The notes beneath the pieces were generated by a model, which made no database searches, had not been told where the DNA came from, and saw only the letters and a program-made list of their open reading frames with translations. The translations under genes were made by a program, and so were the position numbers. Positions 1,506-23,067 of a DNA stretch of 64,000 nucleotides are shown here, piece by piece; position 1 is the stretch's first letter, and each line of letters begins with the position of its first letter. Source of the DNA: Mucilaginibacter myungsuensis (GTDB lineage Bacteria > Bacteroidota > Bacteroidia > Sphingobacteriales > Sphingobacteriaceae); NCBI RefSeq assembly GCF_015222005.1, contig NZ_JADFFL010000006.1, positions 186,001-250,000 on the forward strand, written 5' to 3'.

Positions 1506-3427
1506 TATTTAGATATAACGGTGCCGAAATATTCGGTGATCTTCTTCTCCACCTTTTTCATAAAGATGTACTGGCTTTGCAGTATCTCCTGGTCTGTCTC
1601 GCTGGTGCTGGTTTGCAGATCGGCCAACAATTTATTCAAGATCTTGCCTACCTTTTGTTTTTTAAGGTGGAAGATTGCGCCCAATACCGCAGCCCGCAGT
1701 TTCAACTCCTCGCCCGGCACAAAAATGCTGTGCATATCCAGCCAATTCTCGCTCAGCATATAGCGGGTAGCGATCATATCTACCGTAAGGTCAACAACCT
1801 GCTTTTCGTGGTAGTGGATAAAGTACTGCTCATCGGGCAGTTTACCCTGATCAATCTCCGACTTATAAATATCGATAAACTGCTTACAGGACGGATGGTC
1901 AAATTCTACATCGCTCAATTCCGCTATCATGAACGGGCCAATGTAAGTATTGGTGATGCCATCCCAATCGATCATTTTGTTACCATACAATAACAGCAAG
2001 CGGATGATCTCTTTTTCCTGAGTTTCTCCATCAGCCTCGGTCGCCGTACGCTCGATCTCGGTAGCTATCGGCGCATCCTCGTAAGGCGTTTGGAAAGAGT
2101 CAGGCTGATCATTTTTGCGCATTTTAGCCTGGCGCATCTTGTTCAGTTCGGTAAGCAGGGCGCGCTCGTCTATCTGCATCACCCTGCTACATTCCTTAAT
2201 GAATACAGACGCCTTGATCGAATCAGGTATCTTGGCGATGCTTTCTACCACCTCGCGGATCACACCTGCCCGCAGGATGGGGTCTTTACCGGCCTCTTTC
2301 AGCAGGATATCGGTCTTGTAAAGGATAAAATCCTTACGGTTATCGTCGATATATTTTTTAAAAGCGCTGCTGCCTAACAGGCGCACATAGGTATCCGGAT
2401 CGTGTCCGTCGGGGAACAGGACCACCTTCACGTTCAGGCCTTCTTCCAATATCAGGTCCAACCCGCGTAGCGATGCTTTAATACCTGCCGCATCACCGTC
2501 ATAAAGGATGGTCACGTTCTTGGTCAAGCGGCCGATCAGTTTGATCTGCTCTACCGTTAACGACGTGCCCGATGATGCCACCACATTCTCTATCCCGGCC
2601 TGATGTACCGATATCACGTCGGCATAGCCTTCTACCAAATAGCAATTATCCTCATCGCGGATGGCTTTCTTGGCAAAGTTCAATCCGTATAATACGTTCG
2701 ATTTATGGTAGATCTCGCTCTCGGGCGAGTTCACGTATTTTGGTACGTTCTTATCGGTCTTAAGCGTCCTACCACCAAAGGCGATCACCCTGCCGGTATA
2801 GCTATGTATCGGGAACATCACTCGGCCACGGTAACGATCGTACAGGTTGCCGTTATCGCGCTTGACCGACAAACCACTCTCTACTATGAATTCTTCCTGA
2901 TACCCTTCTTTTAAGGCTTGGGCCGAGAAAGCTTCCCACTGATCGGGTGAGTAACCCAGTTCGAATTTCTTGATGGTCTCAGTAGTAAAACCGCGCTCTT
3001 TAAAATAGCTGAGGCCGATAGCCTTGCCTTCGTCGGTCTCCCACATGCTATCTTGAAAGAACTTAGCGGCGTACCCCGATACGATCATCAAACTTTCGCG
3101 GCGGTTCTCGGCTTCTTTATTCTCCGGCGATGTTTGGGTCTCTTCAACCTCTATACCGTACTTTTTAGCCAGCCACTTTAACGCTTCGGGGTAGCTGAAT
3201 TTCTCCAGCTCCATTAAAAAGGTTACCGCAGAGCCACCCTTGCCGGTAGAGAAATCCTTGAAAATGCCTTTAGCCGGAGACACCGTGAACGACGGCGTAC
3301 GCTCGTTAGCAAAAGGCGACAGACCAATATAATTGGCCCCGCGTTTCTTCAGCTGAACGAATTCGCCGATCACCTCCACAATATCTGTGGCTTCCATTAT
3401 ACGGTCGATGGTGGGTTTGGTGATCAT
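1505..3427 (-). CDS. dnaG: DNA primase DnaG, with a zinc-binding domain lacking all four zinc ligands
   Basis: The 640-residue primase lays RNA primers at the replication fork. Order of domains: N-terminal zinc-binding fold (about 1-100), TOPRIM catalytic core with EGYAD (about 266-270), DGD (about 308) and DPD (about 345), then a C-terminal helicase-binding region. The zinc fold keeps its scaffold and exact C-x2-H-x17-C-x2-C spacing, but the ligand positions read Ser37, Ala40, Asp58 and Thr61, so zinc cannot bind in the usual way. I recall the same replacement in flavobacterial DnaG, so it is probably a lineage trait. The ATG at 3425-3427 was chosen over a TTG 15 bases upstream because the TTG lies inside the promoter box (3440-3447) and the family normally begins near this Met. 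The stop overlaps the yraN start. Confidence 0.96.
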   Translation of the reverse strand: MITKPTIDRIMEATDIVEVIGEFVQLKKRGANYIGLSPFANERTPSFTVSPAKGIFKDFSTGKGGSAVTFLMELEKFSYPEALKWLAKKYGIEVEETQTSPENKEAENRRESLMIVSGYAAKFFQDSMWETDEGKAIGLSYFKERGFTTETIKKFELGYSPDQWEAFSAQALKEGYQEEFIVESGLSVKRDNGNLYDRYRGRVMFPIHSYTGRVIAFGGRTLKTDKNVPKYVNSPESEIYHKSNVLYGLNFAKKAIRDEDNCYLVEGYADVISVHQAGIENVVASSGTSLTVEQIKLIGRLTKNVTILYDGDAAGIKASLRGLDLILEEGLNVKVVLFPDGHDPDTYVRLLGSSAFKKYIDDNRKDFILYKTDILLKEAGKDPILRAGVIREVVESIAKIPDSIKASVFIKECSRVMQIDERALLTELNKMRQAKMRKNDQPDSFQTPYEDAPIATEIERTATEADGETQEKEIIRLLLLYGNKMIDWDGITNTYIGPFMIAELSDVEFDHPSCKQFIDIYKSEIDQGKLPDEQYFIHYHEKQVVDLTVDMIATRYMLSENWLDMHSIFVPGEELKLRAAVLGAIFHLKKQKVGKILNKLLADLQTSTSETDQEILQSQYIFMKKVEKKITEYFGTVISK

Positions 3428-3439
3428 ATTTGCAGGGTA

Positions 3440-3447
3440 CAAATGTA
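3440..3447 (-). promoter_or_regulatory. -7 box of the dnaG promoter (TACATTTG)
   Basis: This is an exact match to the Bacteroidota -7 consensus TAnnTTTG, read on the minus strand. It ends 13 bases before the dnaG ATG, so the predicted leader is under 10 nt. No clear -33 TTG is visible. It argues against the TTG at 3440-3442 as a start codon. Confidence 0.6.
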
Positions 3448-3587
3448 CGGGAAAACGCTTAACCCACGGCGCGAGTTACTATTGAGTATTCCACAAATGG
3501 CACCGCAAAAAGTTAATATCTTTTTAACGTATTGACTGCAAGTATGGTTCGTTGGTCGATCGGGTCTCCATTCTTTATTCCTGATCC

Positions 3588-3611
3588 GTCGCCCGTTTTC
3601 TCACGGGCGAC
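3588..3611 (-). terminator. GC-rich hairpin after the four-gene exported array
   Basis: A 9-bp perfect stem (GTCGCCCGT/ACGGGCGAC) with a 6-base loop lies just past the stop of the last array gene. There is no T-run on the minus strand, so it may be a weak terminator or an mRNA-stabilising hairpin. Confidence 0.45.
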
Positions 3612-3622
3612 TTTCGACCGCT

Positions 3623-4726
3623 TTAATTCGTTCCTTCGGGTTTATAGTCGCTTGGTAGCTGGTCGCCCAAACGCATCAGCCCCCATTTACCGTTCTGGCT
3701 GATGTTGCAATCGATACAATTGCCCGCCCTGTCTATCTTAACCGGGCGCTCGTCCATACTCAAAAGCGTGCTGGTCACGGCCCGCACTATCCTGCGTAGT
3801 TTAAATGGTTCCCCCTGGTTTTTAAACGACGCTGCTTTTTTAGGGTCGTAGTTGGCATACATCATCTTAAAATGCAGCGTTTTAAAAGCGTTGTCCACCA
3901 CTTTTGTCAGCGTATCAAAATTGGCAGGGCGATGGTCGATATAAAGATATCCTGGTGCCGAGTTTTTAGGCTCATCAAAACGCGCGTGAACGGTAAAGCC
4001 CTCCTGCAATACGTTGCCTTTGTAAACAGCACGCAAAAAACGGCGGAGCGATCCTTTATATGTATCCGCCCGGTTTTTGGCCCATTGTTTTTTTTGCTTG
4101 TCGGTGCCGTCCATTTCTTCAAACACGGCGTCGCCGGCAATGGTGCTGTAATTGCTGCCAAGCGTATGCCTGAAACTTTTTAACTGGTAACGGATCTTAT
4201 ACCCCAGGCGGTTGTTCATCACGATCAAAAAGTCGTCGGCGTCGGCCGTTAAATATTGCCGTCCAGTGGTCAGGTTCACAACTTCTTCATTCAGCAATTT
4301 ACAACTGCGGCCGTTATCGCTCTCGCCTAAAAGTTCGCGTTTAAATAGCGAGTAATATTCGCTCAGGTTAGCCTTGTTGCCGATCACTACTTCCCGCAAT
4401 GCAGTGGGTTTAATCTTTAGGCTGATACTGATATCAGCCGACCTTTGTATCAATTCGACGGTTGCTGTCGCCGCGTGGTAGCCCAGCATTTGTACCGATA
4501 CCTGATAGCTGCCCGGTGCCAGGCTTGGGAACGCGAATGTGCCGTTGTTATCCGTCGGCATAATGCGGGTAGTACCGTTGATGAATACGGTGGCGGCCCG
4601 CATCGGTTCGCCCTTTTCGCCGGTGACCTTGCCGCTAATGGTGAATTTAGTTTGCGCGCTTGCCAAAAGCGGGAGCAAGAACAGCAGTATACTCAGCAAA
4701 GGTGTTTTAAGATCGGGTAGTGTCAT
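3623..4726 (-). CDS. Exported CarboxypepD_reg-domain protein, array member 4
   Basis: This 367-residue protein has a signal peptide (residues 1-24, cut after A-S-A, mature end Gln25). A CarboxypepD_reg-like beta-sandwich follows at about 27-105 ('SGKVTGEKGEPMRAATVFI', 'GTFAFPSLAPGSYQVSV'), then 'TALREVVI'. The remaining ~250 residues match the other three array members, with conserved 'DDFLIV', 'LGYKIRY', 'Q-KQWAKNR-Y-GS--RF-RA-Y' and a closing 'GKWGLMRLGDQLP-DY-P'. There is no TonB plug or barrel and no T9SS C-terminal domain. The gene starts 12 bp after the stop of the preceding array gene, so it is probably co-transcribed with it. It is the most divergent copy. Function unknown; a periplasmic or outer-membrane-associated role is inferred. 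Confidence 0.8.
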   Translation of the reverse strand: MTLPDLKTPLLSILLFLLPLLASAQTKFTISGKVTGEKGEPMRAATVFINGTTRIMPTDNNGTFAFPSLAPGSYQVSVQMLGYHAATATVELIQRSADISISLKIKPTALREVVIGNKANLSEYYSLFKRELLGESDNGRSCKLLNEEVVNLTTGRQYLTADADDFLIVMNNRLGYKIRYQLKSFRHTLGSNYSTIAGDAVFEEMDGTDKQKKQWAKNRADTYKGSLRRFLRAVYKGNVLQEGFTVHARFDEPKNSAPGYLYIDHRPANFDTLTKVVDNAFKTLHFKMMYANYDPKKAASFKNQGEPFKLRRIVRAVTSTLLSMDERPVKIDRAGNCIDCNISQNGKWGLMRLGDQLPSDYKPEGTN

Positions 4727-16515: not shown

Positions 16516-19500
16516 TTACTCTATCCTCAACTTCTTCATCCCCTCCCGTCCGTAAAACACCGGGAAGTACATCATCTCGGCTTTGGCGGGGTTAACGGTG
16601 TAGTTGCCGCTGTAGCGGGGCATCAGGCTAATGGTAAAGGTATGTTTACCGGCGCTAAGCTTGCGGCAGAAAATGCTCACTTTGTTTTTAAAGTACTCGC
16701 GGTGAACCTCGCCGTTGCCGTAGCCCTGTGGTTTGCCGTTGTACGAGCATCCTGCCGGGATGGGTATCTCTACCATCACCATATCGGCGTCGGCACGGGC
16801 GGTAACTTCAGCGGTCAAAGTAATGGCATCGCCGCCTTTGGCTTGGGTGATCTTGGTACGGCCGTTATCAAAACGGGTATCTACGGTAAAGTCGCCGCTC
16901 ACTTTGGCGGGGTTTGGGTTCCAAAATTTTTGATAGGCGGTAATGTACACCGACATATCTCCGCTTTTTTGGATATTCAGTTTGGCGTTACCGTCAAGCT
17001 TAACCTCGTAAGGGAATTTGGTCACTGTCTCTATTTTACTACCGCTAATGCTGAGCGATGCCGGGCGGGGCTTTTCGCCGGCTATCAGCATATCAGGCAA
17101 AATGGTCTCTAAGATCTGCGCCGACTCATACGTATTGCGCCAGCTGCCGTTGCCGCGCTGCTCTAAAAAATAGTTGCGCAGTTTGCCCAGCAGTTGCGGG
17201 TGCTTGCCCTCGGTTCTCAGGATCTTGTAAGCCAGCAGGCTATTCTGAATAGAGTTATTGAACAGGTAATAACCCTGCTGCCCCCAATACACATTACCGA
17301 ACATGGTGGTCTTCATCCCTTTCAACAAACTGTCTATCACTATCGGCAGGCCAATAACCTGGCGGGCATGCATCAGTCTCAGTTTTTCATTGTCAGATAC
17401 CATGTCTCTCAAGGACAGCTCCTTTTCATACCTGCTCATGATCAGCTTAAGATCGGCCGATGAACCCAGCATCTTCAGCAAGGCGATCACCCGCAATTTA
17501 TCCTCGCCCTTGTACGCATCCGACTGGAACATCAGGTAATTGATCAGCTCGCGCTGGTTCACTGTTACCTCGTAACCCTGCGCTTTGGCGGTCAGCAAGG
17601 CCTCGCTTACGTGCATACTTATCCAAAGCTCTTCGGGGGTATCTTTCCACCAGCCCCAAACGCCTTGCCCTTTACGGTTCTCGTTCAGGCGTTTGATCAG
17701 GTCTTTAATGGCATTGTCCCATTTAAACGGTTCTTTCAAATAGGCGCGTATCTGTTTTTCGGCCAGCAGGGCTTTTAGTTTCGATGCCAGTTGCTCGTTA
17801 CATAGGTACTCGTAATCGCGCAGGTGTTGTACCTCATCCAGCAGTACCGGCAAGGCCGACGCTTCGGCACGCAGGGTAACTTCTTTCAGGTTGGCATCGA
17901 ACGTTAAGTTGATCGCCGTATCCCTTTCCAGCGTTTTAAAAATGCCTTTGGTCTCTAAGGTGCCCTGTTCAAAAACGGGGATAGCGCGGTACTCGCCATC
18001 GGCGTAACCGTTGGGGCGGTTTATGGTGTATTCAAAACGAAGGCTGTCGCTTGATGCTACCACTTTAAAAGTGTCGATGTAGGCATTCTTGATAGTCAGC
18101 TTGTTATCAGCCAAAACTTGCCCGTTAAATTTAAATTTGCGACCCACAGCCACAGTATCTGCCGTGTAGTTCATCAACTTACCAATGGTAGCAATACTAT
18201 CGCATTTAATGGCGAATTGCGGTGCAGTAAAATTGGCGCTCACTGGCTTGTAAGCTTTTACCGAACCTTCGGTAAAGCCAGTTTGGCGCTTATCAGTAAT
18301 GCCTACCATAAAGGTGCGCCAGTTGGTGATATCATCGGGGTAGGTCACCTTAAAGCGTACTTTACCTTCGGCATCGCTGCTGAGTTTGGGCTGCCAGTAG
18401 GCATAGTCAGAGAAATTGCGGCGCAACAACATACCACCGCCGGCCATCTCGGGCATCATTTTATTTTTCCCCTTAACGGTCGATATCAGGATCACCCCGT
18501 ACGCGCCGCGCGATCCGTACAAAGCCGTAGCCGATGCATCCTTCAATATCTCCATCCCGGTTATTTCGTCCTGCTTTAGTTCCTGAAGCGGGTTGCCATC
18601 GGCAGGGATGCCGTCCACAATATATAAGGGGTTACCGCCCGTCCCGTTGCCTGCTGTAGATAAGCCACGGATGCTGACCGAGCCACGCATGCCCGGCGCA
18701 CCGGTATTGTTCTGGATATTTAACCCGGCCACTTTGCCTTGCAGCAGTTGTTCTACATTGGCTACCGGCTTATCCTGGTCCTCGCGTGCGGTGATGATCG
18801 TAGATGAGCCTGTGGTCTGCTCGCGGGTGCGCCTGACATAGCCACGGATCATGGCCGCGCGCATAGCAATAATAGAGGTGCGTAGCAGGTGCACCGTTAC
18901 GGCAGTATCTGTGCGGATGGCCGCCCGCTCGGTATCGTAAACATCAAGCGAAATGCGGATAGAACCTTTAGCCGGTACGGTGAGTTTGAACCTGCCATTT
19001 TTATCGGTAACCGTACGGTGCTGTGTCCCGGTCACCGTAACGGTCGCCCCTGCCAGCGGGAAACGATCTTTCAAATCTATCACTCTCCCGGTCATGGTTT
19101 TATTGAAGGTCAGCCAGTTGGGGTCACGATCAAAGAACGCCTCCCTAATGGCATCGCTGCAAGCTTTGACAGATGCGCCCTCTATCTGATCGATCAGTAT
19201 CTGGCCTATGCGGTTACTCATGCTATCGGCCGGATGTGGCGTGATAGCGCCCAGGTTATAGTAATTGCCACCGTTGGGTTCAACCACAATGTTGTTTTGG
19301 ATGTGATAGCTATTGCCATCCATCAAATACAGCATACGGTACTCCCCGGGCTGGTAACCAAAGAAATGCGTATTGTTGGCCGATACGATCTGCAAATAGT
19401 CGGCATCATCCTTTTTAAATATCAGCACGCATTTAATACGGTAGTTTGCCTGTTTGGGCAGCAACGGCCCGGCGGTCACATACAGTTTGGTATTGCCGCT

Positions 19501-22413
19501 CTGATAGCTGTATTGGTTAAAGTAATTAGACACACGCTGATCCAACTGCTTTTGCCACATAGTATCGATGGCGTTTCGGGTCAGCACATATTGCTTATAG
19601 GCATCGTAGCTGTAATTCCGCGGCAATTTAGTATCGAACGGATAGCCTGCAGGCAGCGACTTTTGCTTGATCAGCCCCGGCGAAATATCGAACGAGTAAT
19701 TACCCTCGCTGTAGAAGCTTTGTTGCAGATAGTCCTTCATATCAAGATCTACCTTGTTTTGGGCAAATGGCCCCACCAGCACACCTACCGATCCGTTATT
19801 ACGACTGTAGTTATCGCTGCTGCGCGAGTTAACCAAATGTATCCGCCCATTTTGCTCCAACGTAACCATGCGGTCGCTCAAGGAATACGGCGCCAGCTTG
19901 ATCATGTAATTGCTCATCAGATCACTCTCATGCCGGGTGAGGGTATCGGGCATGGGCAATATCCTGGCTATCTTGTTCTGCACGGTATCGGCATTAACGG
20001 CTAAGATCAGTTTTTTACCGGCGGGGATCTTGATATTTTGCAATTCTATTAAATGGTTTTTGGTACGCATGCGAATGCTCCAGATCAGCGTATCCACCGC
20101 GAAACTGTATTGCGGATATTCCTGGGCCTGATCAAAAAATACAGGCTTATCGTTAATATACAGGATATGCACCGGCTGTATCTCGCCGTCCTTCATCACA
20201 AAGGGGGCTATTTGGGTAAGCTTATCGGACGTAGGCTCGGCTATTTTAAAAGTATCTTTTGGATGCGTGAACTGAAAGTAGCTGATGGTATCCAAACCCT
20301 GCGCAAGCCCCCAACGCTGCCAATTAAGTTTCAGCTCGCCATCGCGGTTGGGGTTGATCTGTTCGTTAACAAAAGGCTTTAGCTTACGATACGGATAGGT
20401 TTTACCCAAGTAAGGGATCGCGGGGCCGTAATACTGCTCAAATTTACCGGTGATCCCATAAGCGGTAATGTCGGCCCCGGCTACGGGTTTGCCTTTATGG
20501 TCGGTCACCTCGGCAACTACTTCGGCTTGCTGACCGGGATAAACGGCCATTGGTTTGGTCACTTTGATATTGAGTACCCTGTCCTGATAGGGCACTTGTT
20601 GCTCCAGATATTGCGGACGGCCGCCCCAAATAAAGTTGACCAACAACGATACGCTACCGCTGCTTTTGTAGCTGCGCTTGTAGTCCAGTTCGGTACCGCT
20701 GCCCTGGGCCAGCACCTTTTTACCGCCGAACACCGTGTACCAAAATTTAAGCTTTCGCGGATTGTTGACATGCAGAAAAAGCGAATCGGCCGTGCGGTAG
20801 CCTTGCGGATCTACATTGGCCCCGGTGTTGCTCACCACATGCAGGGCGTTCAGTTCGCCCACCTTTACCGAGTAACTTTGCAGCATGGGGTCGATGGCGA
20901 TCTTTGCAGGTAGACTGATGGTGCGGGTAACCAGCGCGTCTTCTTGCTTATGCTGATACTCCTTTAATGTAGCCGTGGCAGGCGTTGATCTGCCCGATAC
21001 CAGGTACTCCATCTTTAACGAGTCGCCCTCGGCTTTAGCCGAAAGGGTGCGGTTATCATAGTCCCAGTTAATGTTATGATACTCCACGCGGCTTTCGTTA
21101 TTACTGTTCAGCAATTGGGTGCTCACGTTCAGATTCATTTTTAATTTGGGGAAGATCGAGTCGGGGATCATAAATTTGGTCTCGCCCACGGCATCCAGCG
21201 GTATTTGGAAAATACCCAGGGTATCGCGCACAAAATCATATGGGTTAAGGTACTCGCTCACATATCCCAGGCGCACAATAATGCGCACCCGTGCATCGGG
21301 AACGTTCAGCCCGTTATCATCCGTCGCCTTGAAGTAGAACGGCACCGGCACACCCGGCGACTGGCTGTACCCATCCTTACGGACGGTGAATTTATTGGTC
21401 TTTAGTTCGTACTCCTCTACCCTAAAGCTACCGGTATGGTATCCCGGAGGATCGCGGCGGTACTCTCCGTCGGCCCGCTTGTCTGTAGAGACCGGGCGAC
21501 CATCCTTACCCATCGGCTCTAAATTTATCCGGTAGGTTTCGTCGATGTCCAGATCCAGGCTATCGTCCAGCTTAAATTGATATTCAAAGCCACCCTTGCG
21601 GTATGCGTTCACCGTGCCCAGCAATTTGCCGCCCGGCTTGCTATCAAGTATCCGCACTGCCAACTGCTTATCGTTGATGGGTTTTTTATTGCCTTTTTGC
21701 AGGATGAAGGCCTTAAACTTCACCGTATCGTTAGGGCGGTACTTAGGTTTATTAAAAATGATAAAGCCCGGATTGGTCCCCTGCGGAAAGTTGGTCTGCC
21801 GCGCCTTTGTTTTGGACTTTTTGCTAAACGGAGCTGTAATACGGCTCCACAAGCTGCTTTTCTTCTTTTTGCCGAAAAAATACCCTTCATCAAGCTTGTT
21901 CTCGCCGTATTGATGGAAATTGCTCACGCCCTGATACACGGCCTTGATCAGCATCTTATCCGGTTTTTGAGCGGTGTGGTAAGAGCGAGAGACCTCGTCA
22001 TACCTGATCTGTTTTTTACCCACGGTTACCACCGCGGTGGTGACCTCCTGATAGGTGCTATCCAGTAACACAAAACGCATATCGACCCCGTTGAGCAACT
22101 GCTTAAAAATAACCGACGGCTTTTGGATAAGCCGGTATTGTAATTTATTGAGCGAGGCATATACTTCCAGATAATTACCCGGGGCCAGGCGCAGATCGGG
22201 CTTGGTGCCGGTGAGGTATTTGTAAACAGGCTCTTTCAGCAGCTCATCTTTAAAATCGTCTTCCTTTTCGTTGATGAATAACAGGGTCGAGGCATCGTCC
22301 AGCCGGTAGATGTAAGTATAAGGGCTATTGGTGCGGCTATCCGTCAACGGCTTTTGGCCGAAGGAAAGGATAGATGCGAAGATGAAAAGCAACAAGGTCA
22401 AAGACTTCTTCAT
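16516..22413 (-). CDS. Alpha-2-macroglobulin-like protein with an inserted SusC-type CarboxypepD_reg and TonB-plug module
   Basis: The ATG at 22411-22413 gives 1965 residues with a signal peptide cut after G19 (mature Gln20; no lipobox). Macroglobulin domains begin with an MG2-like segment ('YRPNDTVKFKAFI', about 220-315) and continue to about 1090. Then comes a foreign-looking insert: a CarboxypepD_reg domain (about 1107-1175, 'GRVIDLKDRFPLAGATVTVTG') and a SusC/RagA-type plug (about 1215-1315, 'LLQGKVAGLNIQNN', 'SIRGLST', 'PLYIVDGIP', 'ILKDASATALYGSRGAYGVI'). The A2M domain ('ITNWRTFMVGITD', about 1370) and a thioester domain follow. The thioester motif is intact as Cys1538-Asn-Glu-Gln1541. 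The protein ends with an A2M-type receptor-like domain. Bacterial A2Ms trap proteases in the periplasm; no pbpC partner lies nearby. No beta-barrel follows the plug. Conventional A2M function plus a docking role for the plug is inference. Confidence 0.88.
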   Translation of the reverse strand: MKKSLTLLLFIFASILSFGQKPLTDSRTNSPYTYIYRLDDASTLLFINEKEDDFKDELLKEPVYKYLTGTKPDLRLAPGNYLEVYASLNKLQYRLIQKPSVIFKQLLNGVDMRFVLLDSTYQEVTTAVVTVGKKQIRYDEVSRSYHTAQKPDKMLIKAVYQGVSNFHQYGENKLDEGYFFGKKKKSSLWSRITAPFSKKSKTKARQTNFPQGTNPGFIIFNKPKYRPNDTVKFKAFILQKGNKKPINDKQLAVRILDSKPGGKLLGTVNAYRKGGFEYQFKLDDSLDLDIDETYRINLEPMGKDGRPVSTDKRADGEYRRDPPGYHTGSFRVEEYELKTNKFTVRKDGYSQSPGVPVPFYFKATDDNGLNVPDARVRIIVRLGYVSEYLNPYDFVRDTLGIFQIPLDAVGETKFMIPDSIFPKLKMNLNVSTQLLNSNNESRVEYHNINWDYDNRTLSAKAEGDSLKMEYLVSGRSTPATATLKEYQHKQEDALVTRTISLPAKIAIDPMLQSYSVKVGELNALHVVSNTGANVDPQGYRTADSLFLHVNNPRKLKFWYTVFGGKKVLAQGSGTELDYKRSYKSSGSVSLLVNFIWGGRPQYLEQQVPYQDRVLNIKVTKPMAVYPGQQAEVVAEVTDHKGKPVAGADITAYGITGKFEQYYGPAIPYLGKTYPYRKLKPFVNEQINPNRDGELKLNWQRWGLAQGLDTISYFQFTHPKDTFKIAEPTSDKLTQIAPFVMKDGEIQPVHILYINDKPVFFDQAQEYPQYSFAVDTLIWSIRMRTKNHLIELQNIKIPAGKKLILAVNADTVQNKIARILPMPDTLTRHESDLMSNYMIKLAPYSLSDRMVTLEQNGRIHLVNSRSSDNYSRNNGSVGVLVGPFAQNKVDLDMKDYLQQSFYSEGNYSFDISPGLIKQKSLPAGYPFDTKLPRNYSYDAYKQYVLTRNAIDTMWQKQLDQRVSNYFNQYSYQSGNTKLYVTAGPLLPKQANYRIKCVLIFKKDDADYLQIVSANNTHFFGYQPGEYRMLYLMDGNSYHIQNNIVVEPNGGNYYNLGAITPHPADSMSNRIGQILIDQIEGASVKACSDAIREAFFDRDPNWLTFNKTMTGRVIDLKDRFPLAGATVTVTGTQHRTVTDKNGRFKLTVPAKGSIRISLDVYDTERAAIRTDTAVTVHLLRTSIIAMRAAMIRGYVRRTREQTTGSSTIITAREDQDKPVANVEQLLQGKVAGLNIQNNTGAPGMRGSVSIRGLSTAGNGTGGNPLYIVDGIPADGNPLQELKQDEITGMEILKDASATALYGSRGAYGVILISTVKGKNKMMPEMAGGGMLLRRNFSDYAYWQPKLSSDAEGKVRFKVTYPDDITNWRTFMVGITDKRQTGFTEGSVKAYKPVSANFTAPQFAIKCDSIATIGKLMNYTADTVAVGRKFKFNGQVLADNKLTIKNAYIDTFKVVASSDSLRFEYTINRPNGYADGEYRAIPVFEQGTLETKGIFKTLERDTAINLTFDANLKEVTLRAEASALPVLLDEVQHLRDYEYLCNEQLASKLKALLAEKQIRAYLKEPFKWDNAIKDLIKRLNENRKGQGVWGWWKDTPEELWISMHVSEALLTAKAQGYEVTVNQRELINYLMFQSDAYKGEDKLRVIALLKMLGSSADLKLIMSRYEKELSLRDMVSDNEKLRLMHARQVIGLPIVIDSLLKGMKTTMFGNVYWGQQGYYLFNNSIQNSLLAYKILRTEGKHPQLLGKLRNYFLEQRGNGSWRNTYESAQILETILPDMLIAGEKPRPASLSISGSKIETVTKFPYEVKLDGNAKLNIQKSGDMSVYITAYQKFWNPNPAKVSGDFTVDTRFDNGRTKITQAKGGDAITLTAEVTARADADMVMVEIPIPAGCSYNGKPQGYGNGEVHREYFKNKVSIFCRKLSAGKHTFTISLMPRYSGNYTVNPAKAEMMYFPVFYGREGMKKLRIE

Positions 22414-22707: not shown

Positions 22708-23067
22708 ATGAAGACGCTAAAGACATTAATAACCGCCATTATATTAACCGCCGGCTCGGTAGCCGCAGCTAACGCGCAAGTAGGTTTCCACGTAAGTGTG
22801 AACGCGCCGGGCGTGCACGTGAGGGCAGGCAATTACAGACCTGCATATCGCCGCCCTGTGGTGTACCGCGAGGTTTATCAGCCGGTCGTATATCGTGAGT
22901 ACCGCCGACCGGTAGTTTACCGTGAAGTTTACCATCCGGTACGTTACCGTAAAGTTCACCGCCCGGCTTATCGCAGGCAGGTAGTGTATCGCAACTACCA
23001 CCGCCCGGCTTATCGCCAGGTAGTTTACCGCGATCGTGGTAACCATCGTGGCCACGGAAGGTGGTAA
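22708..23067 (+). CDS. Small exported protein built of Tyr-Arg-Pro-Val repeats
   Basis: A 119-residue protein with a clear signal peptide (cut after A23 in 'AAANA', mature Gln24). After a short 'VGFHVSVNAPGVHVRAG' segment, residues 45-112 consist of degenerate repeats of the type Y-R-R-P-V-V-Y-R-E-V-Y, about eight in all, ending in a Gly/His/Arg tail. The mature protein is extremely basic and rich in Tyr, Arg and Val. No enzymatic motif is present. It could bind an acidic polymer such as DNA, LPS or exopolysaccharide, or form a structural surface layer; both are guesses. The A+T-rich upstream region suggests strong expression. The frame is supported by the signal peptide and the regular repeat. 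Confidence 0.8.
   Translation: MKTLKTLITAIILTAGSVAAANAQVGFHVSVNAPGVHVRAGNYRPAYRRPVVYREVYQPVVYREYRRPVVYREVYHPVRYRKVHRPAYRRQVVYRNYHRPAYRQVVYRDRGNHRGHGRW

Follow-up and report, generated by a model that had tools for sequence, protein, structure and literature searches.

What does the N terminus of a SusC-type receptor do inside an alpha-2-macroglobulin (A2M)? The question is raised by a gene of Mucilaginibacter myungsuensis in a stretch of 64,000 nucleotides (contig NZ_JADFFL010000006.1, positions 186,001 to 250,000), which as a whole we call the window and from whose first letter positions are counted. A preliminary description of this DNA had read the gene product as an A2M with the N-terminal module of SusC inserted into it and no barrel behind the module, and this description stands: the open reading frame (ORF) is intact, it matches CarboxypepD_reg, Plug and positions 1-210 of the SusC model TIGR04056, and it carries the thioester motif CNEQ at residues 1538-1541. 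A Pfam search finds Plug, CarboxypepD_reg, CarbopepD_reg_2, A2M and bMG10, with MG2 below its cut-off. The domains of the inserted module, hereafter the cassette, its position in the bait slot, its conservation and its mosaic structure were all obtained by computation. That the module lies in the bait slot, and that it has exchanged parts with receptor genes, goes beyond the preliminary description. The features are as follows.

16516..22413 (-): whole gene, 1965-residue A2M with SusC-type cassette (intact ORF, Pfam)
22354..22413 (-): signal peptide, residues 1-20 (...ILSFGQ), by eye, without lipobox
21559..21768 (-): MG2 domain, residues 216-285, under the Pfam cut-off
19126..19224 (-): two predicted helices, residues 1064-1096, ahead of the cassette (AlphaFold models)
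18880..19110 (-): NTE / CarbopepD_reg_2 Ig-like domain, residues 1102-1178 (Pfam, model)
18835..18864 (-): TonB-box position, residues 1184-1193, MRAAMIRGYV (alignment with relatives)
18637..18867 (-): low-confidence stretch, residues 1183-1259, box and first half of the plug, presumably disordered (first model)
18493..18822 (-): Plug domain match, residues 1198-1307, E 1.2e-16 (Pfam)
18463..18627 (-): folded plug core, residues 1263-1317, block pLDDT 65-83 in the first model
18433..18465 (-): low-confidence linker from plug to alpha'NT, residues 1317-1327 (1319-1335 in the second model)
18412..18423 (-): alpha'NT motif R1331-x-x-F1334 (alignment, 70 rows)
18145..18402 (-): A2M domain PF00207, residues 1338-1423, E 1.7e-14 (Pfam)
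17089..17853 (-): helical thioester domain, about residues 1521-1775 (model, structure alignment)
17791..17802 (-): thioester motif CNEQ, residues 1538-1541 (sequence)
16561..16869 (-): bMG10 domain, residues 1849-1951, E 1.9e-13 (Pfam)
16567-16578 (-): EXMY lock motif, here EMMY, residues 1946-1949 (sequence)

Place of the cassette in the A2M fold

In the window protein an NTE is followed by a Plug domain, the same order as in SusC/RagA receptors. CarboxypepD_reg matches residues 1106-1164 (E 8.4e-13) and CarbopepD_reg_2 residues 1108-1175 (E 4.3e-10), and in NCBIfam the SusC model TIGR04056 matches residues 1105-1319 with its positions 1-210 of 981 (E 1.3e-55, 189 bits against a cut-off of 368), while the SusC signature TIGR04057 matches residues 1284-1312. 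No outer-membrane barrel family was found in the protein with Pfam up to E 1, and TIGR04056 covers only its first 210 positions. An ANA domain was not found up to E 1 either; the SusC-like cassette fills that slot. On the A2M side, PF00207 and the bacterial MG10 domain both pass their Pfam cut-offs.

With the A2M part alone as query, 406 relatives were obtained from named genomes; the best 80 of the 406 were kept and correspond to 77 loci in Mucilaginibacter, Pedobacter, Chitinophaga, Niabella and others, which are hence close to the window. Among them, 69 have ORFs that are uncut at the 5' end and at least 1800 residues long, and these form with the window an alignment of 70 rows; L138, L139, L140, L148, L153, L158, L190 and L200 were left out as 5'-open or shorter. 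CarbopepD_reg_2, A2M and TIGR04056 each match 70/70 rows, and Plug and the SusC signature 64/70 each (E up to 0.01), so that the domain order seen in the window is that of its relatives. C.EQ is present in 76 and E.MYF in 66 of the 77 loci. An assembly error joining two genes, the event that could have undone the preliminary description, is very unlikely, because the uncut ORFs of 69 relatives share the architecture of the window.

Two AlphaFold models were made, the first of residues 780-1965 (mean pLDDT 81.5, pTM 0.55) and the second of residues 930-1440 (mean pLDDT 76, pTM 0.52). The structure-alignment rows of the first model mainly cover the residues after the insert, and the domain before it received no structural identification. 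The part after the insert aligns with the Escherichia coli A2M, ECAM (5a42; Z 22.1, rmsd 7.0, 598 residues), and with human A2M (7von; Z 27.6, 619 residues, rmsd 9.0), and the first model aligns with Salmonella A2M (4u48; Z 22.6, rmsd 7.0). The first residue aligned after the insert is 1335 (556 of the model), which corresponds to ECAM 965 and Salmonella A2M 956. In protease-cut ECAM, as PMC4498604 describes it, bait residues 923-942 are unseen, whereas order appears at 947-963. Just ahead of this point, R1331 and F1334 are both kept in 70/70 rows; from motif, spacing and place we take them as the equivalent of R732 and F735 of human A2M. According to PMC9352918, the alpha'NT strand that carries R732 and F735 comes after the bait region of human A2M, or after the ANA domain of C3, and its retraction upon bait cleavage is the proposed trigger of A2M. 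Before the cassette stand the two helices at 1064-1096, which by our own assignment from the models would correspond to the LNK region of the A2M family (PMC9352918). Because the alignment resumes at 1335, the alpha'NT arginine and phenylalanine follow directly after the cassette and two helices precede it, we are highly confident that the cassette sits in the bait-region slot.

Whether it also serves as the bait is a separate matter, on which we lean towards yes. The cassette combines folded and loose parts. In the second model the NTE superimposes on the NTE of SusC (9hfj; Z 13.8, rmsd 1.4 A over 79 residues), and Foldseek retrieves SusC plugs, with 8aa4 first (122 columns, 43% identity, rmsd 4.4). 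The pLDDT falls below 50 at 1183-1259 and 1317-1327 in the first model and at 1188-1217, 1229-1231, 1236-1240, 1248-1257 and 1319-1335 in the second, which thus includes only parts of 1183-1259. Between the two loose stretches of the first model lies the folded plug core, and the first half of the plug belongs to the low-confidence stretch. Residues 1183-1259 and 1317-1327 are presumed to be the cleavage zones, as the models predict them to be as loose as a bait requires. PMC8267569 reports that human A2M still works with its bait region wholly replaced.

In its CxEQ thioester, PF00207, bMG10, EXMY lock motif (described in PMC4498604), alpha'NT RxxF and the fold downstream of the insert (Z about 22, rmsd 7.0), the protein resembles the type I bacterial A2Ms ECAM and Salmonella A2M; it differs from them by the NTE-box-plug cassette of about 225 residues in the bait slot and by a signal peptide in which no lipobox was seen by eye. 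This signal peptide suggests that the window protein is exported and probably periplasmic. Signal-like starts were found in 56 of the 69 relatives by a crude scan, and the 7 of these 56 that look lipobox-like rather have, by eye, AQ sites at the end. With complement C3, C4 and C5 the protein shares a folded domain ahead of alpha'NT and the fold after the slot, but there the slot holds an ANA domain (for C3, see PMC9352918). Compared to SusC/RagA, it has the same order of NTE, TonB-box position, Plug and SusC signature but no barrel. Shortening of the plug is seen across the A2M family and not in the window protein, whose box MRAAMIRGYV differs from the DEVVVTG of SusC Bt1763.

Exchange with receptor genes and the fate of the TonB box and plug

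The 70 A2M cassettes were aligned with 65 SusC modules. These were fetched with the window and L160 cassettes as queries, apart from a few that came from whole-protein searches, and the sample is biased to two types, which touches the trees, the approximately unbiased (AU) test, the conservation of box and plug and the nearest-row comparisons alike. Searched against 61 genomes of the genus, the window cassette matches a receptor frame of its own genome first among the matches listed (57%, 193.0 bits; the next genome gives 179.8), and the non-self matches listed all lie in receptor-sized frames, with no A2M-sized frame among them. The parts of the cassette behave differently. Its NTE has A2Ms as the best 8 of 147 rows, whereas for residues 1179-1246 the best 8 of 147 are seven SusC modules and one anti-sigma-like protein, with the SusC of the same genome first at 75%, and for the plug core the best 8 of 147 are all SusC, the own-genome SusC at 67% being second by one point. 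Judged from the sequences, then, the window cassette is a mosaic with an A2M-like NTE and a SusC-like box and plug.

Two trees were built. In the larger one, of 148 modules, the SusC group that takes in the window cassette (SH-aLRT 96) also holds the Pedobacter cassettes L156, L160 and L202, two VWA modules and one anti-sigma-like module. Of the 80 A2M cassettes, 72 cluster by themselves (SH-aLRT 91, not starred) and four lie elsewhere. The place of L060, on a long branch, is unsure. L062 lies among the bulk of the A2M cassettes in this tree and on the SusC side in a tree of 49 rows, where the SusC and A2M sides are split at 100/100. These 49 rows speak against a single clade for the A2M cassettes (p-AU 0.022), a soft value, as the rows were chosen by hand after the RGY-type A2Ms had been noticed. 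Three further cassettes illustrate the exchange. In L060, from an A2M of the genus, the closest rows for NTE and box are A2Ms (49%, with 40% for the best SusC), but its second part resembles receptors of another type at 47%; there the best A2M cassette reaches 24% and the top two SusC rows 28-31%. In Pedobacter ginsengisoli (species name inferred), the L160 cassette finds the SusC of the same genome as the best of 40 genomes (58%, E 2.6e-40; next 3.2e-32), and in L062, a tandem A2M of this species, box and plug together score best with this very SusC. A tandem pair of cassette-bearing A2Ms with differing cassettes was recorded at G284:C1:415250-426842. Over the whole set, box and plug are nearer to SusC than to another A2M in 5 of 80 cassettes (in three of them the margin is at most 9) and the NTE is nearer to SusC in 4 of 80. 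The sequences thus indicate that exchange with receptor genes happens, but not constantly.

A tolerant pattern recovers a TonB-box-like motif in 59 of the 70 rows. The three valines of the box have frequencies of 0.86, 0.83 and 0.87 in the A2M rows against 0.89, 0.60 and 0.57 in the SusC sample, whose figures are lowered by its mixture of two types, and the glycine is at 0.91 against 0.72. PMC7782687 reports that the box DEVVVTG of SusC Bt1763 is required for growth through Bt1763. The plug has fared otherwise. The distance from the box to the end of the plug has a median of 102 residues (55-124) in A2Ms versus 147 (119-150) in the 65 SusC modules, and positions that are conserved in the SusC sample (P1216 0.95, G1238 0.92, P1240 and G1241 0.98 each) are occupied in only 0.16, 0.27, 0.41 and 0.41 of the A2M rows, respectively. 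By eye, the later half of the plug is absent after the NTE and box-like sequence in L188, L191, L192, L197 and L198, mostly from Chitinophagaceae, and in the metagenome-assembled genomes L183 and L190. Across the family, a box that is kept and a plug that is reduced would suit a handle better than a stopper. Unlike the family, the window protein has 124 residues from box to plug end and retains the SusC-conserved positions; this plug is apparently a later import, of which full length is to be expected.

Over 20 pairs picked greedily at 72-98.5% identity, and with synonymous differences near saturation (pS 0.52-0.66), dN/dS was 0.067 in the A2M part downstream of the cassette, 0.154 upstream of it and 0.17 in the helices. 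Within the cassette it was 0.21 for the NTE, 0.22 for the box, 0.33 for the variable part, which is the highest value, 0.19 for the plug core and 0.23 for the linker. On these sequence comparisons the cassette appears constrained, yet evolving faster than the A2M part after it.

Modules on other proteins, spread and gene neighbours

Related modules occur on proteins other than receptors and A2Ms. The window genome has a YfbK-like VWA protein with an NTE by Pfam (L204:1533-3587, G000:C2), where a box, RGYVRRTREQT, and the beginning of a plug can be made out by eye. The same genome has an M56/BlaR-like protein (L205:868-2931, G000:C4:8367-10430), which combines Plug, M56 and TonB_C domains, contains two plug-end segments and has the C-terminal end ETVIRGYVRKSK. 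In P. ginsengisoli an anti-sigma-like protein and a divergent VWA protein are adjacent (L271:493-2497 and 2538-4571). The VWA protein has NTE and Plug; the other, labelled anti-sigma-like by eye, has an NTE and plug start, adjoins a sigma-70-type gene and ends in what reads by eye as a TonB C-terminal domain, for which Pfam gave no report at E 0.001. Like the A2M, the VWA, M56/BlaR-like and anti-sigma-like proteins carry NTE, TonB-box or plug segments, singly or together, without a barrel; unlike in the A2M, the module stands at an end or between other domains, with no A2M part. Because related modules recur on several non-transporters, the module seems to be useful by itself.

Genome searches at E up to 1e-60, with 2 to 4 candidates scored per genome, gave matches in 28 of 100 genomes in a draw from the genus, 23 of 151 from the family, 41 of 201 from the order and 24 of 295 from the class, where most matches are confined to the A2M part; the draws overlap and, given the few candidates scored, absences are soft. 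At E up to 1e-40, the draw from the phylum gave 6 of 296 genomes, and as G114 is a receptor alone, 5 A2Ms are left. A contig scan of the named genomes with the whole protein as query found no relative, and the alignment of the A2M part worked as a query. Of 26 more distant loci (L070-L095, 24 genomes), 22 match CarboxypepD_reg and 8 match Plug at E up to 0.1, and several of the remaining loci have, by eye, remnants like other receptor plugs.

Gene neighbours were compared for 67 loci and the window. The two largest clusters cover 23 of these 68, and no functional partner gene was seen by eye in the clusters. PMC5764988 mentions that in a number of bacteria the A2M gene adjoins pbpC; no pbpC was noticed by eye in the 16 largest clusters, whose neighbours carry no annotation from family searches. 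In 23 of 67 loci there is a gene that by eye resembles an SH3-NlpC/P60 cell-wall hydrolase (L150:1764-2544, L154:514-1297 and others); in the four loci inspected it is upstream of the A2M gene and codirectional with it. The window also encodes, at 22708-23067, a small protein full of Tyr-Arg-Val repeats without a Pfam match, and elsewhere in the genome there is a second A2M of 2022 residues (G000:C8, L207:375-6443) without CxEQ and without a CarboxypepD_reg or Plug match.

Proposed mechanism and its alternatives

We propose that the protein is an exported A2M of the thioester type in which the N terminus of a TonB-dependent receptor would have become the bait region. Cleavage by proteases would fall in the loose stretches that flank the small plug core and release the alpha'NT strand, upon which the trap would spring and the thioester would bond the protease. 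Because the cassette keeps a TonB box in most relatives, a TonB protein would there probably also keep the trap close to the receptors that it guards. The bait would be modular, with pieces replaced in some members by segments resembling receptor genes, in the window by segments like those of its own-genome SusC. We infer the periplasmic location, the cleavage, the trapping and the binding of TonB. Taken as a whole, the reading as a protease trap whose bait derives from receptors, can be exchanged and often comes with a TonB handle seems to us evenly balanced between right and wrong. For the binding of TonB by the family we would put the chance slightly lower than that. For the window's own copy it must be put lower again, since its box departs from the consensus (L.EVVVVGYG in the relatives) and the tie may be weakened or lost. 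The TonB link drawn in the preliminary description is thus plausible for most relatives, with a box-like motif in 59 of 70, and less so for the protein on which it was based.

Several results weigh against this proposal. The pTM of both models is low (0.55 and 0.52), the first model begins at residue 780 and does not include the domains expected to make up the alpha'NT channel, and alpha'NT itself is modelled with middling confidence in the first model (block pLDDT about 62) and low confidence in the second (under 50 at 1319-1335). MG2 reaches 29.1 bits against a cut-off of 32.8. PMC9352918 reports that extending the 39-residue engineered bait of human A2M favoured the collapsed form, and a cassette bait of about 225 residues would be far beyond that length. 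The window has AAMI instead of EVVV in its box (AAMIRGY), and 10 other rows of the 70 fail the pattern too. The dN/dS of the box, like that of the NTE and plug core, is indecisive as a test of a TonB box, and conservation of the box could reflect repeated import. We know of no protein of this type that has already been tested.

The alternatives overlap with this proposal and with one another, and their probabilities do not add up to one. The slot may tolerate almost any sequence, so that chance recombination between similar NTEs imports receptor segments and the cassette is a spacer. The complete replacement of the bait that human A2M tolerates (PMC8267569), the scarcity of Plug at the distant loci and the weaker constraint on the cassette than on the downstream A2M part (dN/dS 0.19-0.33 versus 0.067) all agree with this. 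Nevertheless, we consider it unlikely, if worth serious attention, as purifying selection is apparent on all parts of the cassette, by a rough measure, an NTE in 70/70 close relatives goes together with a box-like motif in 59/70, and the modules on VWA, M56 and anti-sigma-like proteins suggest a use of their own. It is also possible, and compatible with the trap proposed here, that the cassette is a decoy that mimics the periplasm-facing N terminus of the TonB-dependent receptors of its own cell, so that proteases that attack or enter receptors cut the mimic and are caught, with repeated copying from receptor genes keeping it matched. By similarity the donors are two types of receptor, SusC and receptors of 930-1000 residues with the motif NLPADIIEK..DDYGDQA; a same-genome receptor module scores best, over the cassette or over box and plug, for the window and for both tandem A2Ms of P. 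ginsengisoli; and the variable part has the highest dN/dS measured. On the other side, there is no known attacking protease, the same-genome matches amount to three cassettes, the margin of the window is small (193.0 versus 179.8 bits) and gone for the plug core alone, and most cassettes look inherited, because 72 of 80 group together. We regard such mimicry as improbable on the whole, and the fuller form of it, in which a receptor-copy bait is renewed by recombination, held at TonB and triggered by proteases acting at or through receptors, as a shade more so; a variant of the latter would address the bait to the genome's own M56-type protease with its TonB C-terminal domain.

The preliminary description had further suggested that the plug docks into an outer-membrane barrel, and this did not find support. 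The plug core does fold like SusC plugs (8aa4, 43% identity, rmsd 4.4), and the plug of the window is nearly full length (124 residues; 119-150 in the SusC sample) with the SusC-conserved residues kept, which counts against an argument from plug loss. In the family, however, the plug is shortened and SusC-conserved stretches are often missing; it is tethered to the A2M at both ends; 24 of 27 PF00593 hits in the genome, compared by contig and frame length, lie in a reading frame that has a Plug hit too, although PF00593 misses some receptors, such as the SusC on C14; and no neighbouring barrel was noticed by eye in the 16 largest neighbour clusters. We give docking very little credence, and just as little to the idea that cuts on both sides free a TonB-box/plug fragment that signals in the manner of an anaphylatoxin, for instance to M56 or anti-sigma-like proteins with a TonB C-terminal domain. 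For a released signal speak the slot, which PMC9352918 gives as that of the ANA domain of C3, the two loose tracts that flank the plug core and the M56 protein of this genome with its Plug, M56 and TonB_C domains and its ETVIRGYVRKSK end; against it stand that there is no evidence of release or of a receptor and that the NTE would remain attached.

The preliminary description knew of no characterised A2M of this type, and we likewise found no published A2M with a SusC-type module among the papers listed from the openly licensed PMC literature. To our knowledge, little is established about what bacterial A2Ms target in nature. A bait composed of TonB box and plug would name a concrete partner, TonB, and a class of attackers, proteases that act at receptors. 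The family would also be a natural case of the bait exchange that was engineered before in human A2M, as reported in PMC8267569, and SusC-type NTE-box-plug pieces appear as modules on several kinds of non-transport proteins. In these bacteria the machinery of nutrient uptake may be what the trap targets or what it is tethered to.

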